Part shown: positions 7,237 to 45,735 of the stretch, in pieces
Layout: each line of letters starts with the position of its first letter
Position numbering within the stretch: the stretch's first letter is position 1
Source of the DNA: a virus
DNA: 64,000 bases
IMG/VR virus record: IMGVR_UViG_3300007513_000031
Location: 1-64,000 of that record
Strand: one strand, 5' to 3'
Made by a program: the position numbers and the translations under genes
The notes under the pieces: generated by a model
Told to the model about the DNA's origin: nothing
The model's input: the letters and a program-made list of their open reading frames with translations, nothing else
Databases searched by the model: none

Positions 7237-7314
7237 CTTTGACACAAAGTCAAAGACTTATGCGGATAACCACCGCGTAGCCAGGAGAACTGGCATTGGA
7301 CTCCTAAAAAGGAG
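7237..7314 (+). promoter_or_regulatory. Structured 5' leader with a possible Shine-Dalgarno switch
   Basis: Four stems are visible in order. Stem 1 is ctttgac/gtcaaag (7237-7243 with 7249-7255). Stem 2 is 7260-7265 with 7273-7278, core gcgg/ccgc. Stem 3 is gccag/ctggc (7280-7284 with 7290-7294). Stem 4 is ctcc/ggag (7301-7304 with 7311-7314). Stem 4 occludes the Shine-Dalgarno (aaggag, 7309-7314) of the gene at 7322. An alternative pairing of CTCC 7301-7304 with GGAG 7284-7287 would break stem 3 and free it. It matches no riboswitch class I can recall, so the regulatory role is inference. Confidence 0.5.
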
Positions 7315-7321
7315 AAAACAA

Positions 7322-7756
7322 ATGGGAAGACCTATCAAAAAAAGTAAAATGGCCAACACTTCAAGTGGCGCGGCAGGTAATATAGCTGTAACAGCTTATA
7401 GACCGTACGGTGGAGCAAAAGTTGATTCTACTACGGCTTATATAATATCACAAAGAGGATCTAAACTATTCAAGATTTCGTTAGAAGATTCTTCTAATGC
7501 TGTGTACCAATTGAAAGCAGTTGCACCAGGATCACTAGCTAATGATAACACTAGCTCATATGGTGAGTTCTGTGTACAGGTTATATTAAATGACTCAACA
7601 GTTGCATACGTTGAACGATTTTATAACAACACAATTCATTATGTGACTGCGGCAGGTGCGGCAGGTACTTGCACATATACATTAGGTGATGAAGGTACTG
7701 ATGAAGGACAAGCAGGATCAGGTGCTGGTTCCATTGACGTTATTACTGCACAGTAA
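7322..7756 (+). CDS. Putative virion structural protein (beta-rich, 144 residues)
   Basis: The protein begins MGRPIKKSKM and then runs as Gly/Ser/Thr/Ala-rich predicted beta strands with no catalytic motif. MGRP-type starts are familiar, from memory, in small structural proteins of marine T4-like phages. It heads the block of fibre and decoration genes and is closed by a terminator. Its long, folded leader is unusual among these genes. A decoration or fibre-associated role is inference. Confidence 0.55.
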   Translation: MGRPIKKSKMANTSSGAAGNIAVTAYRPYGGAKVDSTTAYIISQRGSKLFKISLEDSSNAVYQLKAVAPGSLANDNTSSYGEFCVQVILNDSTVAYVERFYNNTIHYVTAAGAAGTCTYTLGDEGTDEGQAGSGAGSIDVITAQ

Positions 7757-15275: not shown

Positions 15276-15322
15276 ATTGATATTTAACGAGCAAATTATA
15301 ACATAGTTAGGTAAATATCAAT
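15276..15322. promoter_or_regulatory. Divergent promoter region with inverted repeat
   Basis: attgatattta (15276-15286) and taaatatcaat (15312-15322) are perfect inverted repeats. Each arm holds a TAAATA late-type core facing outward: GTTAAATA on minus (15281-15288) and GGTAAATA on plus (15310-15317). The minus gene starts at 15269. The plus gene starts at 15366 behind an aagggg Shine-Dalgarno. Confidence 0.5.
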
Positions 15323-15365: not shown

Positions 15366-17336
15366 ATGGCAATAGGACGTATAACAGGACAGATGTTATC
15401 AGCCAACTTGGCTAGATCAGGAACTGATTTAACATTCGAAACAAATTTATTAGCCCTAGACGTGTCAAACAGCAGAGTTGGAGTTGGCACAGCCTCTCCT
15501 GCAACTACATTACACGTTTCGGCAACAGATGCAGTTAGAATAGCATCTGGAACAACAGGACAGAGACCAGGCTCACCAGCAAATGGTGATTTAAGATATA
15601 ACTCAACACTTTCAACAATTGAAGGTTATTCTAATAGTTCTTGGGCTAACTTGGCATCAGGTGATCAAATTAAAGACGCAGATAACGATACATTTGTTAA
15701 AGTAGAGGCACAAACAGACCCCGGCGATCAAGATAGAATTCATATGAATTGCGGCGGAACTGAAGTTATGGTTCTTGCGGCGGGAACTACTGAGTTTGGT
15801 AGTGCAACATCAATTTCAAATAGTGCATCAACAATTACAGGATTAGTAACAAACGGTAACATAGCAATAACACCAAATGGAACAGGTGAAGTTGACATTT
15901 CAAAAGTTGACATTGACGCAGGTGCTATTGATGGTACTAACATTGGTGCGTCAAGTGCAGGTACTGGTGCTTTCACAACATTAACAGCATCAGGAAATTG
16001 TACAATCACAGGTAACTTAACAGTTAATGGTACAACATCAACAGTTGCTACTACTAACACAGTTATCTCAGATAACATTTTAGAATTAAACAACGGTATT
16101 TCAGCTAGTACAAATGACGCAGGTATTATTGTAGAAAGAGGTTCTACAGGAAATAATTCTTGTATGATTTGGGACGAATCAGCAGATGCTTGGGTAGTTG
16201 GAACAACAACTGCCACAGGTGCAGACAAATCAGGTGGAGTATCAATTACAAAAGGTGAGTTTCAAGCGGCAACAGGTACATTTACTAACGTAGATGGTAT
16301 TGTTGGAGCCAATACAGCGGCGGCAGGTACATTTACATCTTTAACAGTAACAACAGCAGTTAACATTGATGACGGTGGTGATGGTGCTATTGACGGTTGT
16401 ATAATTGGTGGCAGTTCGGCGGCGGCTGGAACATTTACAACTTTAAATGCTTCAGGTGCAGTTTCACTAGACGGTGGAGCATTTACTTTTAATGATGCAA
16501 GTGCAGATCTTGACTTTAGATGCGAAACTAATGGCAATGCTAATACATTCTTCCTTGATGGTGGAAATGACAGAGTTGGTATTAAAACAGCATCTCCATC
16601 TTATGATTTAGATATAGCTTCATCTACTGACGCAGTTAGACTACCGGTTGGTACTACAGCACAAAGACCAAGTGCGGCGACTGGTATAATTAGATTTAAC
16701 TCAACAACTGGAAAATATGAAGGTTGTCAAGATGGATCTACTTTTGTTAACCTAGCAACAGCAGGTGATACACCAACAATTTCAAAAGTTTCAGCAACAG
16801 GTGATGGATCAACAACAACATTCGCACTTTTTAGTACGGCACCAAGTGCAGTAGCTAACGTGCTAGTGTTTATTGATAACGTTTATCAAGAGCCAACTGA
16901 AAACTATACAGTAAGTTCAACTAACATTACATTTACTTCTGCTCCGCACAGTGCGGCTAGAATATTTGCTATTACTGGATTTGATAATACAGCGTTAGCA
17001 TCAGGTGGAGTTGCAAGAACAGAAACAAGTTCAACTAACTTTACATCAAGTGCTACAACTATCATGAGTTTCAACGCTTCAACTTACAGAGCGGCAGAAC
17101 TGTTTATAGTATTACAAGATTCAGCAAATACTGAATATGCTTGTATGAAAGCAACTGTAACGCATAATGGTTCAACAGCATTTGGTAACATCTACGGTGT
17201 AACAAATACAGGTGGTGAAACAAGTGATTTAGGAACTATTACGTTCGTACACGATGGTTCTAATACTGTAAATGTTAAAGCAGTAAGTTCGGGTGGACAG
17301 ACAGCGGCAACTGTACAATACTCACTAGCATCGTAA
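15366..17336 (+). CDS. Tail-fibre protein of mosaic domain structure
   Basis: The protein has 656 residues. The N-terminal attachment module (MAIGRITGQMLSANL, NSRVGVGTASP) is shared with 10399 and 18631. The GNLTVNGTTSTV, MIWDESADAWVVGT module and the GTTAQRPSAATGIIRFNS, FIDNVYQEPTENYTVS module come next. One C-terminal copy of the roughly 105-residue repeat that is tandemly repeated in the protein at 18631 closes it (SATTIMSFNASTYRAAELF, VTHNGSTAF). Ala-rich linkers join the blocks. It has a Shine-Dalgarno aagggg and a downstream terminator. Probable fibre or receptor-contact protein. Confidence 0.72.
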   Translation: MAIGRITGQMLSANLARSGTDLTFETNLLALDVSNSRVGVGTASPATTLHVSATDAVRIASGTTGQRPGSPANGDLRYNSTLSTIEGYSNSSWANLASGDQIKDADNDTFVKVEAQTDPGDQDRIHMNCGGTEVMVLAAGTTEFGSATSISNSASTITGLVTNGNIAITPNGTGEVDISKVDIDAGAIDGTNIGASSAGTGAFTTLTASGNCTITGNLTVNGTTSTVATTNTVISDNILELNNGISASTNDAGIIVERGSTGNNSCMIWDESADAWVVGTTTATGADKSGGVSITKGEFQAATGTFTNVDGIVGANTAAAGTFTSLTVTTAVNIDDGGDGAIDGCIIGGSSAAAGTFTTLNASGAVSLDGGAFTFNDASADLDFRCETNGNANTFFLDGGNDRVGIKTASPSYDLDIASSTDAVRLPVGTTAQRPSAATGIIRFNSTTGKYEGCQDGSTFVNLATAGDTPTISKVSATGDGSTTTFALFSTAPSAVANVLVFIDNVYQEPTENYTVSSTNITFTSAPHSAARIFAITGFDNTALASGGVARTETSSTNFTSSATTIMSFNASTYRAAELFIVLQDSANTEYACMKATVTHNGSTAFGNIYGVTNTGGETSDLGTITFVHDGSNTVNVKAVSSGGQTAATVQYSLAS

Positions 17337-17370: not shown

Positions 17371-17412
17371 AAACGCTCTAACGATAAATACTATTGTTAG
17401 AGCGTTTTTTTT
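17371..17412 (+). terminator. Terminator whose loop carries a late promoter motif
   Basis: A 12-bp perfect stem (aaacgctctaac/gttagagcgttt, 17371-17382 with 17396-17407) is followed by T residues to 17412. The 13-nt loop begins with GATAAATA (17383-17390), a late promoter motif for the gene at 17461. Its predicted start point falls in the right arm of the stem, so the new transcript would not contain the full hairpin. Confidence 0.85.
17383..17390 (+). promoter_or_regulatory. Late promoter motif GATAAATA inside terminator loop
   Basis: See the enclosing terminator. The downstream leader is about 65 nt and contains gggagaaatagg before the ATG at 17461. Confidence 0.6.
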
Positions 17413-17460
17413 ACGACCTAACATAACATAAACAATAATCATGCGGGAGAAATAGGAACC

Positions 17461-18477
17461 ATGACAACAAGAAACTTTAGAGTTAATACAGGTCTTTCAG
17501 TTGGTGATATAGCGGTAACAGCATCTACAAATGCAGTTACTGGAGTTAGTTCAATTACATTGGACAACAGTACAGCACCAAGTGGAAATGCGGTATTATC
17601 TAATAAAAAATATGTCGACGATCAAATTGCGGCAATTTCGACGACGGCTATAACATCAGGCACAACGAACGCAACAGTAAGCGGAACAACATTGACTGTA
17701 ACATGCTCAGGTAACACAGAAATGACAGTTACAGATGCAGGTGTGAGGATACACGGTGACTTGACAGTTGACGGAACAAACACAATCATCAATACATCCA
17801 CATTAAGTGTAGAGGACAATATAATCGAGTGTAACAGAAACGTTTCTGCAAACAGTGGTATGCCAACTGTTTCAGGGTTGAAAATCAACAGAGGTGAAAC
17901 ATCAACAGCAACAGAAAACGATCTTTTCTGGTGTTGGGATGAGTCTTTTGCAGATGACGGTACAACTACTTACGGTAACGCAGGTGGTGCTTTCACAGCA
18001 TTTAGATCTGCAAACGATGACGTAGATGCTTTAGTAGATATTAGAGCAAACGTTGTACACGCAACGTCCACTTCGGCGCAGTACGCGGACGTGGCGGAGC
18101 GTTTTGAAGCAGACGCTCCTATGGCAGAAGGTGCAGTAGTAGAAATCGGTGGTACAGATGAAATCACTGAAGCAACAGCTGAACTTTCAGATAATGTATT
18201 TGGTGTTATTTCTAAAAACCCAGCATATGCTATGAACGCAGGTGCAGGTAATAGCGATTCACACCCATTTGTTGCAATGACAGGAAGAACTCCAGTTAGA
18301 GTAACAGGACTAGTTGAAAAAGGACAAAGACTTGTTTCTAGCACAGTTAAAGGAACTGCAAGAGCAGTTGCTACTGGTGAAACAATTACTCCATTCCATG
18401 TAATTGGTAGAGCTTTAGAAAGCAAAACTGATGAGGGTATTGGTTTAATAAATTGTGCAGTGAGAACTAACAACTAA
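17461..18477 (+). CDS. Fibre/structural protein with peptidase G2-like C-terminal region
   Basis: The protein has 338 residues. The N-terminus begins MTTRNFRVNTGLSVGDI, and a KKYVDDQI motif follows. The shared GDLTVDGTNTIINTSTLSVEDN, FWCWDESF module occupies about residues 100-170. The C-terminal 140 residues (SAQYADVAERFEAD, then VFGVISKNPAYAMNA, GRTPVRVTGLVEKGQRLV) resemble the autoproteolytic or chaperone-like end domains of phage fibres (Peptidase_G2 type). The family call is tentative. Cleavage, if any, cannot be judged from sequence. A terminator follows. Confidence 0.6.
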   Translation: MTTRNFRVNTGLSVGDIAVTASTNAVTGVSSITLDNSTAPSGNAVLSNKKYVDDQIAAISTTAITSGTTNATVSGTTLTVTCSGNTEMTVTDAGVRIHGDLTVDGTNTIINTSTLSVEDNIIECNRNVSANSGMPTVSGLKINRGETSTATENDLFWCWDESFADDGTTTYGNAGGAFTAFRSANDDVDALVDIRANVVHATSTSAQYADVAERFEADAPMAEGAVVEIGGTDEITEATAELSDNVFGVISKNPAYAMNAGAGNSDSHPFVAMTGRTPVRVTGLVEKGQRLVSSTVKGTARAVATGETITPFHVIGRALESKTDEGIGLINCAVRTNN

Positions 18478-18504: not shown

Positions 18505-18533
18505 AAAGGCGGTCTCCGGATCGCCTTTTTTTT
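18505..18533 (+). terminator. Intrinsic terminator
   Basis: A 10-bp stem with one G-U pair (18505-18514 with 18519-18528) closes a TCCG tetraloop and is followed by a T-run to 18533. A consensus late promoter starts 7 nt later. Confidence 0.92.
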
Positions 18534-18539
18534 GTGGCG

Positions 18540-18547
18540 TATAAATA
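18540..18547 (+). promoter_or_regulatory. Consensus late promoter TATAAATA
   Basis: Exact T4 late -10 element, giving a leader of about 78 nt for the 1316-residue fibre gene at 18631. Confidence 0.8.
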
Positions 18548-18560
18548 CGTATACTGCTGT

Positions 18561-32830: not shown

Positions 32831-32860
32831 ACAAATTTAGAGTAGCATTTATAATACAGG

Positions 32861-32887
32861 AAAAGCGTCTTTATAGGCGCTTTTTTT
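32861..32887 (+). terminator. Intrinsic terminator after gp19
   Basis: A 9-bp stem with one G-U pair (32861-32869 with 32876-32884), a 6-nt loop and a T-run at 32881-32887. It is followed 5 nt later by a consensus late promoter. Confidence 0.9.
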
Positions 32888-32892
32888 GTGGC

Positions 32893-32900
32893 TATAAATA
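32893..32900 (+). promoter_or_regulatory. Consensus late promoter TATAAATA
   Basis: Ends 5 nt before the ATG at 32906, with no Shine-Dalgarno. In T4 geometry this puts the transcript start at the A of the ATG. Confidence 0.8.
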
Positions 32901-35120: not shown

Positions 35121-36161
35121 ATGTACCAAATTGATACTATAGAAAGTATTACAATTGAAGCCACGAATTTTTGTAATGCTAAATGTCCACAATGTGCTAG
35201 ATATAATTATTATGGAGAACTACAAAAAGATCTACCTTTAATGCACATTAACACAAACAATTTACTAAATTTACCTTTACAAAAAATGAAAAGTTTAAAA
35301 AAAATTAAGTTTAATGGCAATTATGGAGACCCATTAATGCATCCACAAATTGACAAAATATTTGAAACTTTTCAAAACTATGCAATGACTGTTAGTACTA
35401 ATGCGTCTTTAAGATCAATTGCTTGGTGGGGAAAACTTGCCAAATATAATATGAAAGTCAAATTTGCAATCGATGGGCTAGAGGATACGCATTCATTATA
35501 TCGTAGAAATACAGACTACAAAAAAATTATGGACAATGCAAAAGCATTTATAAATGCTGGTGGTAATGCAGAATGGCAATATATAATTTTTAAACATAAC
35601 GAACATCAAGTAGATGAAGCAAAACTATTAAGTGAAAAATTAGGTTTTAAAGGTATTGTTTTTCAATACAGTGACAGATTTTTAGCGACAAACAAAACTC
35701 CTGTATATGAAAATAAAAAAATTGCATACTATTTAGAATCTGCTACTAAACAAAAAACCATGCATGAATTAAGTGGAGCAAAAGAAGGAACATTTTACAC
35801 AAAAAACTTTTTAAATAACGAAAACATGACTAGTGAAATACAATGCCCATGGGCAGAAACAAAACGTTTACAGATAAGTGCAGATAGTCTTGTTTTTCCT
35901 TGTTGTTATATGTTGAATGTTTTGGTGAATAAACCAATTCATAAAAGCCTTTGGGAAAAAATAATCAAGTCATATTCTGGAGTAAACTTAAATTATCACA
36001 CATTTGAAGATATTCTAACAAGTGAAATTTTTCAAAAACTTATCCCAGCTAGTTTAAAAAACAAACCTCATATTACTTGTATAGAACATTGTGCAAATAA
36101 CTTTAGTAAAGGTAAACTGTTTGGCCAAGAACAGACAGTCTTAAATAGTGCATATGACTAA
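35121..36161 (+). CDS. Radical SAM enzyme with SPASM-like C-terminal cysteines
   Basis: The 346-residue protein has the radical SAM cluster motif C-N-A-K-C-P-Q-C (CX3CX2C) at residues 18-25, after IEATNFCN. It has a partial-barrel pattern (KFNGNYGDPLMHP, TVSTNAS, KFAIDG). The C-terminal third has C-P-W, FPCCY and CIEHC, which looks like a SPASM/twitch auxiliary Fe-S site. Such enzymes often modify peptides or proteins by SAM radical chemistry. It lies between gp4 and terminase gp16, an unusual place. The substrate is unknown. Confidence 0.85.
   Translation: MYQIDTIESITIEATNFCNAKCPQCARYNYYGELQKDLPLMHINTNNLLNLPLQKMKSLKKIKFNGNYGDPLMHPQIDKIFETFQNYAMTVSTNASLRSIAWWGKLAKYNMKVKFAIDGLEDTHSLYRRNTDYKKIMDNAKAFINAGGNAEWQYIIFKHNEHQVDEAKLLSEKLGFKGIVFQYSDRFLATNKTPVYENKKIAYYLESATKQKTMHELSGAKEGTFYTKNFLNNENMTSEIQCPWAETKRLQISADSLVFPCCYMLNVLVNKPIHKSLWEKIIKSYSGVNLNYHTFEDILTSEIFQKLIPASLKNKPHITCIEHCANNFSKGKLFGQEQTVLNSAYD
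36140..36147 (+). promoter_or_regulatory. Late promoter-like motif CTTAAATA
   Basis: Inside the end of the radical SAM gene. It ends 6 nt (gtgcat) before the gp16 ATG at 36154. Confidence 0.5.
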
Positions 36162-40679: not shown

Positions 40680-42248
40680 ATGAAAGTACTTTGTTTTGGC
40701 GATAATACATCAAAAGAAGCATGGGCACATAAATTATCAAAAAATTTTGCAGAAAAAAATAAACTAACTTTTCGTGGTATGTTTAATAATAATACTAAAG
40801 AAATTTTAGACGGTTGCTATCATACAAGCACTCATGAATTATCTACTAAAAAAATAATAGAATCAAAAAAGAACTTTAATCAATTTATAATTTTAGATCA
40901 ACCACAAGAAAGATATTCGCACCATAGTTTATTTCAAAGAATGTTTCAACTAATACAGTTTTTTCGAGAAAAAAATATTGAATTTACAATGTTAAATCCA
41001 AAAAATTTTGAAATAATCGAATATTGGACAAATTTGTTGACTACTAATAGAAGTTTTTGTTTAAGACCGTGGATCACATATGCAAGTTTTAATGGATACC
41101 GTAGATCTTGTGAAAGGGGTGAATCTGCTTTAAAGCCATTAATCAAAAGCACAGACAAAATAGATTGGCAGAATAATGAAGCCTTTAATAATTTAAGAAG
41201 TAGAATGTTAAAAGGATTACCAAACGAAGAGAACTGTGGGTGGTGCATTATGCACGAAAAATTCGGGTCTCACCTAACTACAAGATGGCACGATACTTTA
41301 CAATGGGCGACAAAATTAAAATTAAAAAATATAAATGATTTAAAAAAATTTACAAGTCCGGTTTATTATGAGATTAGACCTGGAAACAAATGCAACATAA
41401 TGTGCAGATCATGTACTCCCGGATTTAGTTCATTAATCGAAGAAGAATATAAAAATATAGATCATCCATATTTTAAAAAATATTATGAAAAACAAAAACG
41501 TGGTTATGATTCTTTTGACGTTGTGGATTTAGATACAGCAAAAACAATATATGTTACTGGAGGTGAGCCAACAATAAATGCTGAATTTTATGCCTTTTTA
41601 AGAAAATGTATTAAAGAAAATAAAACAAATTTTAATTTAAGAATAAATTCAAACTTTATGAAAATAAGCAATCCTATAAGAGAATTATTCAAACATTTTA
41701 ATGATATTGGATTTACAGTAAGTATTGATGGTACACCAAAAGTGACTGAATATATTAGATGGAAAACGGTTCAAGAACAAGTAGAAAAAAATATTTACTT
41801 ACTAAAAAATGATGGACATGAAATGGCCTGCATTAGTGTCGTAAGCATATACAATATTACCACTATAGGTGAGACTCTTGAATATTTAGAAACAAAGTTT
41901 CCATTTTTTACAGTGCAATTAAATTATGGTGGACATCGTGGCGATATATTAAACTGTTTTAATCATCCAAACAAAGATATGGTAATTGCAAGTTTGGAAA
42001 AAGCACGTAAATCTAAAATTTATTATGACAACGAAAGAGATACAAAATCTTTACTAGATTCTTTATACAAGCACTATACTAGTGATTATAAAGTTGATTA
42101 CGACAAACTAAAGAAATTTTTTGAATATAACGATATATTAGACAAAAGTAGAGGTTCAAAATTAGGCGATTATATACCCGAATTAGAAGCCTGTAGAAAA
42201 CTTATAAATACACAATATGAACCCAAAAACGTCACAAGACCTTTTTAA
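40680..42248 (+). CDS. Radical SAM protein with twitch-type domain
   Basis: The 522-residue protein has an N-terminal region (residues 1-110) unlike known domains. Cys residues follow in RRSC and NCGWC. The radical SAM motif C-N-I-M-C-R-S-C is near residue 240, and the GGEP motif is in VTGGEPTINAEFYAF. TVSIDGT and NYGGHRGDILNCF lie further on. This is the twitch/SPASM-related architecture. The protein is long for a radical SAM enzyme, so the N-terminal part may bind substrate. The 3' end overlaps the next gene by 32 bp. The substrate is unknown; a peptide, protein or glycan are all possible. Confidence 0.85.
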   Translation: MKVLCFGDNTSKEAWAHKLSKNFAEKNKLTFRGMFNNNTKEILDGCYHTSTHELSTKKIIESKKNFNQFIILDQPQERYSHHSLFQRMFQLIQFFREKNIEFTMLNPKNFEIIEYWTNLLTTNRSFCLRPWITYASFNGYRRSCERGESALKPLIKSTDKIDWQNNEAFNNLRSRMLKGLPNEENCGWCIMHEKFGSHLTTRWHDTLQWATKLKLKNINDLKKFTSPVYYEIRPGNKCNIMCRSCTPGFSSLIEEEYKNIDHPYFKKYYEKQKRGYDSFDVVDLDTAKTIYVTGGEPTINAEFYAFLRKCIKENKTNFNLRINSNFMKISNPIRELFKHFNDIGFTVSIDGTPKVTEYIRWKTVQEQVEKNIYLLKNDGHEMACISVVSIYNITTIGETLEYLETKFPFFTVQLNYGGHRGDILNCFNHPNKDMVIASLEKARKSKIYYDNERDTKSLLDSLYKHYTSDYKVDYDKLKKFFEYNDILDKSRGSKLGDYIPELEACRKLINTQYEPKNVTRPF

Positions 42249-44610: not shown

Positions 44611-44618
44611 GATAAATA
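44611..44618 (+). promoter_or_regulatory. Late promoter-like motif GATAAATA ahead of gp32
   Basis: Gives a leader of about 73 nt. A late-type motif at gp32 fits the expression of T4 gp32 through late infection. Confidence 0.5.
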
Positions 44619-44622
44619 TAGT

Positions 44623-44653
44623 TGTATATTATGTACTATATGTCTAATATACA
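44623..44653 (+). promoter_or_regulatory. Leader hairpin of gp32, possible autogenous operator
   Basis: tgtatatta (44623-44631) pairs with taatataca (44645-44653), a 9-bp AU-only stem with a 13-nt loop. An unstructured A/C-rich stretch follows to the Shine-Dalgarno aaggagg. T4 gp32 represses its own translation through a leader pseudoknot and a single-stranded tract; this arrangement is reminiscent, but no pseudoknot is evident. Confidence 0.4.
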
Positions 44654-44696
44654 TTTAGGCAAACAACAAACATAGGCACACAAGGAGGCTTACATT

Positions 44697-45692: not shown

Positions 45693-45724
45693 CAAGGCCT
45701 TAATTGTTGACAGTTAAGGCCTTG
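45693..45724 (+). terminator. Hairpin after gp32 (weak terminator) overlapping a promoter
   Basis: An 11-bp perfect stem, caaggccttaa with ttaaggccttg (45693-45703 with 45714-45724), has a 10-nt loop but no real T-run. The loop contains the -35 box TTGACA of the next promoter. Confidence 0.55.
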
Positions 45725-45735
45725 TGTATTATAAT
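45707..45735 (+). promoter_or_regulatory. Perfect sigma70 consensus promoter TTGACA-N17-TATAAT
   Basis: -35 TTGACA at 45707-45712 and -10 TATAAT at 45730-45735, with a 17-nt spacer. Both boxes match consensus fully. It would serve the small membrane protein and uvsX early in infection using unmodified host RNA polymerase. Confidence 0.85.

Follow-up and report, generated by a model that had tools for sequence, protein, structure and literature searches.

A T4-type late promoter core within a terminator-like hairpin of a marine T4-like virus

Can a hairpin that appears to end the RNA of one late gene also carry the promoter of the next? The question is raised by positions 17371–17412 (plus strand) of the window, a stretch of 64,000 bases from a virus record of 64,007 bases, where a first-pass annotation had placed a late promoter inside a terminator loop. 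T4-type gene families are represented in the window by portal, major head, tail sheath, terminase, gp32-type and UvsX-type proteins, and the best isolate matches of the major capsid protein are to Sinorhizobium phage Phosso (73%), a Vibrio phage and Pseudomonas PA5oct-type phages (69%); the virus is a marine T4-like virus. The hairpin lies between two ORFs on the plus strand. Upstream is a tail-fibre-like ORF of 656 aa (15366–17336) with matches to virion, tail-fibre and unknown PHROG families and no match in a Pfam search, and downstream is an ORF of 338 aa (17461–18477) with weak matches to tail and virion PHROGs, for which Peptidase_G2 was the sole Pfam match and fell below the cut-off. No Rfam family was matched by the hairpin-promoter element at gathering scores. 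Elsewhere in the window an Rfam freshwater-2 RNA (7238–7324, 80.6 bits) ends at the start of the ORF at 7322–7756, and two radical-SAM-type ORFs (35121–36161 and 40680–42248) lie among the structural and packaging genes.

Anatomy of the hairpin and its promoter core

The element is a terminator-like hairpin of 12 Watson–Crick pairs followed by a run of eight T residues (17405–17412). Its left arm (L, AAACGCTCTAAC, 17371–17382) and right arm (R, GTTAGAGCGTTT, 17396–17407), delimited by pairing, folding and covariation, enclose a 13-nt apex (17383–17395, GATAAATACTATT) that begins with the late-promoter core GATAAATA (17383–17390). Folding gave a minimum free energy (MFE) of -20.7 kcal/mol (z -7.2), and none of 200 shuffled sequences was as stable. 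The hairpin thus combines the stable stem and T-run expected of an intrinsic terminator with a T4-type late-promoter core. The 13-nt loop originally described is accurate as the apex of a 12-bp stem, although folding adds four inner pairs that had not been counted (GATA with TATT) and leaves an RNA loop of 5 nt.

According to the available text of PMC1524935, T4 late promoters carry TATAAATA at -13 to -6, with the base at -13 variable in relatives. This published spacing places GATAAATA at -13 to -6 and the predicted +1 at 17396, the first base of R, so that the T-run would occupy +10 to +17 of the new RNA. Initiation at 17396 is predicted from the T4 spacing, and termination would be expected at the T-run.

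A gp55-type late sigma factor (phrog_234) was matched in five of nine records (G001, G002, G005, G006 and G008), two of which, G002 and G008, also have a nested copy of the promoter. There was no gp55 match in the 64-kb record of the window or in G003, a 91-kb contig with a nested locus (L005), both of which are fragments. For the gp45 clamp, phrog_223 matched none of the nine records in a search run without a positive control, and PF09116 matched one of seven, T4 itself. As neither clamp model matched any relative, the full T4 machinery is unproven, and use of T4-type late transcription is suggested by the sigma factor and the motif. In the five records with a gp55-type gene, where both gp45 models were blank, the clamp may be highly diverged.

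Conservation of the core at homologous junctions

TAAATA was held by 23 of 430 unique terminator-like hairpins collected from 266 sources (2.78 Mb, window and T4 included), its reverse complement by none, and nine other A/T hexamers by zero to four each. Twenty of the 23, including that of the window, represent a single homologous junction with a relative of the 656-aa protein upstream and of the 338-aa protein downstream, and the argument therefore rests on conservation and not on count. A relative of the last ~220 residues of the 656-aa ORF was found by tblastn ahead of the nested hairpin in all 20 distinct copies, a set that omits the three remaining loci (L103, L232 and L239). While TAAATA is present in 20 of 20 by selection, G at -13 and G at +1 were also found in 20 of 20 and neither had been selected for. 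For covariation 19 of the 20 copies were used (L002 being omitted as well). Across the 16-pair structure 95.3% of cells were paired, 13 of the 16 pairs varied, and 24 cells and six pairs had changed on both sides. The covariation score was 0.334 compared with 0.157 for shuffled alignments, none of 500 being as high, and slid versions reached at most 0.069, bearing in mind that related rows may exceed shuffles even where there is no structure. Two of the five measures, changed pairs and pair types, were less decisive, being equalled or exceeded by 17 and 14 of the 500 shuffles.

A stem pattern that did not ask for T residues returned 24 matches, and a run of at least seven T was kept in 21 of these, comprising all 21 matches at the junction. 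The three matches lacking the T-run (L295, L308 and L314) are off-junction chance matches with no 656-aa relative upstream. More than 200 nt of downstream DNA was available for 22 of the 24, and 20 of these 22 precede a 338-aa relative, L308 and L314 being the exceptions; at L295 and L299 the downstream DNA is too short to judge. No GTTAG-type nested unit was seen at any other junction among the 24 matches, the pattern describing one stem type. These matches bear on whether the hairpin terminates at all, since it might act as a 3'-end protector or processing site on read-through RNA, with the promoter merely overlapping it. The stem has just five G-C pairs out of 12, as might suit such a role, yet the constant T-run at 21 of 21 junction matches and the stability of the fold (z -7.2) speak for termination, and we regard a non-terminating hairpin as unlikely.

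Junctions upstream of the 338-aa gene were also compared without reference to TAAATA. Relatives were drawn from 80 of 153 matches plus later loci, tblastn matches were used only if they had residues 1–3, a start codon and 170 nt of DNA upstream, and collapse at 92% identity reduced 61 unique upstream regions to 57. TAAATA was present within -150..-15 in all 57 of these non-redundant junctions, with 14 permuted hexamers present in 6 to 27 of the 57. This constancy, together with the stem, the T-run, the apex GATAAATA and the stability of the hairpin, confirms that a late promoter core is nested in a terminator-like hairpin, as first proposed. The layouts comprised 17 junctions with the core nested in a terminator, seven with the core beside a separate terminator and 33 with TAAATA and no terminator-like hairpin. 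In every one of the 24 junctions with a terminator TAAATA lay inside or after the hairpin, and a terminator without TAAATA was found in none, indicating that the core is kept in its own right and that nesting is one of several placements. Each of the 17 nested junctions contains a single exact TAAATA in the interval, and ahead of the 338-aa ORF of the window the nested copy is likewise the sole one. On a protein tree of 56 of the 57 relatives, built by a quick method, the nested state requires nine gains or losses, of which at least five are forced by well-supported branches, the tree giving these changes without direction.

An ordinary terminator whose apex TAAATA has been kept by shared ancestry only, the downstream gene being expressed by read-through or from some other promoter, would agree with the derivation of 20 of the 23 nested hairpins from one homologous junction. 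Against this, the stem has diverged with compensating changes while terminator junctions lacking TAAATA number none out of 24, the core is kept un-nested in 40 of the 57 junctions, and the 17 nested junctions offer no second exact TAAATA within -150..-15 (exact cores only). Shared ancestry alone is accordingly a quite improbable explanation, and chance nesting at the 656-aa/338-aa junction was rejected on the conservation of TAAATA and the covariation of the stem.

In the available text of PMC2988022 and PMC3014915, T4 late promoters are placed such that the late RNA escapes a hairpin of the longer RNA, with consequences for translation. The junction described here resembles the examples given (e, soc, 49, I-TevI, segB and Aeh1 mobE) in that the late RNA would lack the 5' part of the longer RNA's hairpin. 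The late promoter and split hairpin are arranged alike in the two cases (PMC2988022, PMC3014915), which could suggest a translational switch of the e/soc/I-TevI type, with the ribosome site sequestered by the hairpin in read-through transcripts and the late RNA free of that hairpin. The hairpins of those genes hide the ribosome site, however, whereas that of the window is terminator-like, ends at 17407 and stands 53 nt before the AUG at 17461; when the read-through RNA was folded, no pairing formed between the hairpin and the start region. With the ribosome site out of the hairpin's reach, a translational switch is very unlikely and was rejected. Least probable of all is that the conserved apex is recognised in the RNA by a regulatory protein and is not a DNA promoter. 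T4 proteins such as gp43 do bind RNA hairpin loops (PMC3014915, in its available text), but among the 57 junctions the motif persists in 33 that have no terminator hairpin and in seven where the terminator is separate.

Most probably the element is a fused, compact operon boundary of the late region, with a late promoter within a terminator hairpin. Behind this reading lie features of the sequence itself: how the element is built, its covarying stem, a core that persists whether or not a terminator is present, and the gp55-type gene of two relatives that carry nested copies. At such a fused boundary, polymerase finishing the 656-aa gene would copy both arms, the apex and the T-run into RNA; in that RNA L would pair with R, and transcription would end. 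The late holoenzyme would use the apex TAAATA and start the RNA of the 338-aa gene at the first base of R, and this new RNA, being without L, could not rebuild the terminator. The annotation had held that the same bases terminate one RNA and start the next; comparison upholds the shared hairpin and promoter core, and the ending and starting are predicted from sequence.

Pairing of the right arm in the new RNA

It had also been proposed that the new RNA would be left with only the right arm. The T4 spacing does put the start at that arm, but when the new RNA was folded from 17396, R paired with sequence just past the T-run. This candidate second partner (L', 17413–17422, plus strand), identified from the fold and from pairing tests across the family, pairs in the window through ACG with CGT at 17403–17405 and CTAAC with GTTAG at 17396–17400, a pairing of five plus three base pairs that is weaker than in many relatives. 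Median MFE across the 20 nested copies was -20.5 for the hairpin versus -8.7 for the first 60 nt of the new RNA.

With a score cut of 11 and a leader limit of 55 nt, both fixed after seeing the data, a stem anchored at +1 and scoring at least 11 was found in seven of seven junctions with a separate terminator, eight of nine promoter-only junctions with a long leader and 12 of 17 nested junctions, R–L' pairing thus falling under the cut in five of the nested copies. Such stems were found in none of 24 promoter-only junctions with a short leader. Partial shuffles (100) of the first three classes gave means of 0.5, 0.7 and 3.8 and maxima of 2, 3 and 8, respectively, and the mean score of the +1-anchored stem peaked 4–5 nt after TAAATA. 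When own pairing was compared with swapped pairing, P was 0.004 for junctions with a separate terminator, and 0 of 2000 swaps did as well for promoter-only junctions with a long leader. At nested junctions (n = 26) the scores were 13.7 and 12.2 (P = 0.012), with 69% of own and 57% of swapped pairings passing the cut. Support for a predicted 5'-terminal hairpin is thus good at junctions with a separate terminator or a long leader and only moderate at nested ones, where the first arm of that hairpin would also be the second arm of the terminator. In many copies the freed R could fold onto the short L' after the T-run, so that the new RNA would begin with a hairpin, whose role would probably be protection of the mRNA.

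An extended form of the fused boundary would have the order L-promoter-R-T-L', with the upstream RNA pairing R with L and terminating, and the RNA from the nested promoter pairing R with L' and capping its own 5' end; the T-run would then become a harmless loop and the terminating polymerase would be released on the next promoter. Taken together these steps are possible though somewhat less likely than not, and the swapped-pairing result lowers their odds slightly.

As a general rule for late promoters the 5'-terminal hairpin is unsupported. At a score cut of 13 no peak of such stems was seen in T4 (23 sites), at gp23 loci (144) or in the window alone (10), and small peaks were present only in G001, G002 and G008. 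At uvsX loci, many of them homologous, a peak occurred at 5 nt (30 of 66). A hairpin beginning 4–5 nt after TAAATA may nevertheless mark some late starts, those of certain long-leader genes in uncultured phages. Similar stems were observed at 15312, before the 656-aa gene, and at 44613, before gp32, where a TAAATA is followed by a long 5'-terminal stem (44613–44660); in G001, G002 and G008 such stems lie approximately 1 kb upstream of the uvsX-type promoter.

Comparison with other hairpins and known systems

Our best reading is that the element is a variant of the known hairpin-overlapping late promoters of T4, in which the output is termination instead of translation. Unlike the ribosome-site hairpins of T4, as these are described in the available text, the freed arm of the window type often has a second possible partner. 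The terminator and late promoter before T4 genes 9 and 36 are alike in coupling the end of one operon to the next late start, and differ from the window in that the core lies 28–30 nt after the first base of the hairpin and outside it. Recycling after intrinsic termination is described in PMC6978380: once its RNA is released, a polymerase that retains a sigma factor is able to initiate again at a promoter close by. This was shown on bacterial templates, and such recycling is here a suggested benefit of nesting. The nested, separate and promoter-only versions of the junction form a natural comparison for asking whether polymerase released at a terminator favours the underlying promoter when it initiates again. 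If the reading is true, a dense phage genome has compressed 'end' and 'start' into one 40-bp unit. No account of a natural promoter lying inside a terminator hairpin was found in the open-access literature searched, which was mostly judged by title-level listings. Synthetic terminator-promoter bifunctional elements, in which one element ends one gene and starts the next, have reportedly been built for yeast (PMC10298055), and one report is said to describe an aptamer embedded in a terminator (PMC6478431). The yeast elements are built eukaryotic fusions, unlike the shared-arm RNA hairpin here. Late-promoter prediction failed in pelagimyophage genomes according to their authors (PMC7029224, in its available text).

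The gp32/uvsX junction, both gene names being supported by family matches, had been put forward as an analogous case. A hairpin at 45693–45724 (plus strand; arms 45693–45703 and 45714–45724; MFE -23.2, z -6.9) does hold the TTGACA (45707–45712) of a sigma70-type promoter, TTGACA-17-TATAAT (45707–45735, plus strand; TATAAT at 45730–45735), and the layout is conserved. The likeness is only a loose one, as the hairpin is without a T-run and the predicted start is beyond both arms, so that initiation would not occur inside the stem. TTGAC was in a hairpin in 17 of 69 non-redundant regions upstream of uvsX, of which 44 have a hairpin, with permuted pentamers averaging 1.3; the stems of those 17 differ widely, and all 17 have TAnnAT at a spacing of exactly 17 nt. 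Hairpin-embedded -35 boxes are unsupported as a general feature, being limited to one site per genome (1 of 8 candidate sites in the window, 1 of 21 in G001, 1 of 8 in G002 and 1 of 7 in G008). This hairpin may act as a weak terminator, an RNA protector or an operator.

Coupling of terminators to late promoters is common, and nesting is not. When 254 terminator hairpins were collapsed to 211 (12 from T4 and 199 others), TAAATA was found 0–40 nt downstream in 93 of the 199 from outside T4, a non-redundant set that includes many homologous junctions, compared with a mean of 19 and a highest value of 67 for 14 other permutations. TAAATA was inside 16 of the 199 (permutations mean 1.7), 13 of these being at the 656-aa/338-aa junction. 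Nesting outside that junction, at 3 of 199 versus the permutation mean of 1.7, was not above background, the three matches being L103, L232 and L239. In T4 TAAATA was inside none of 28 terminator-like hairpins, and none of 12 at a stricter cut. The six strong plus-strand hairpins of the window comprise four with TAAATA no more than 25 nt after them, the nested one and that of gp32/uvsX, and in a terminator scan five of seven window hairpins had TAAATA inside or within 80 nt downstream. One of the background matches, an unrelated nested case, has the full TATAAATA in a terminator hairpin after a major capsid gene (L103:3725–3756). In the window a recurring adjacent layout was seen, in which the terminators at 18505–18549 and 32855–32900 are followed directly by TTTTTGTGGC and then by TATAAATA.
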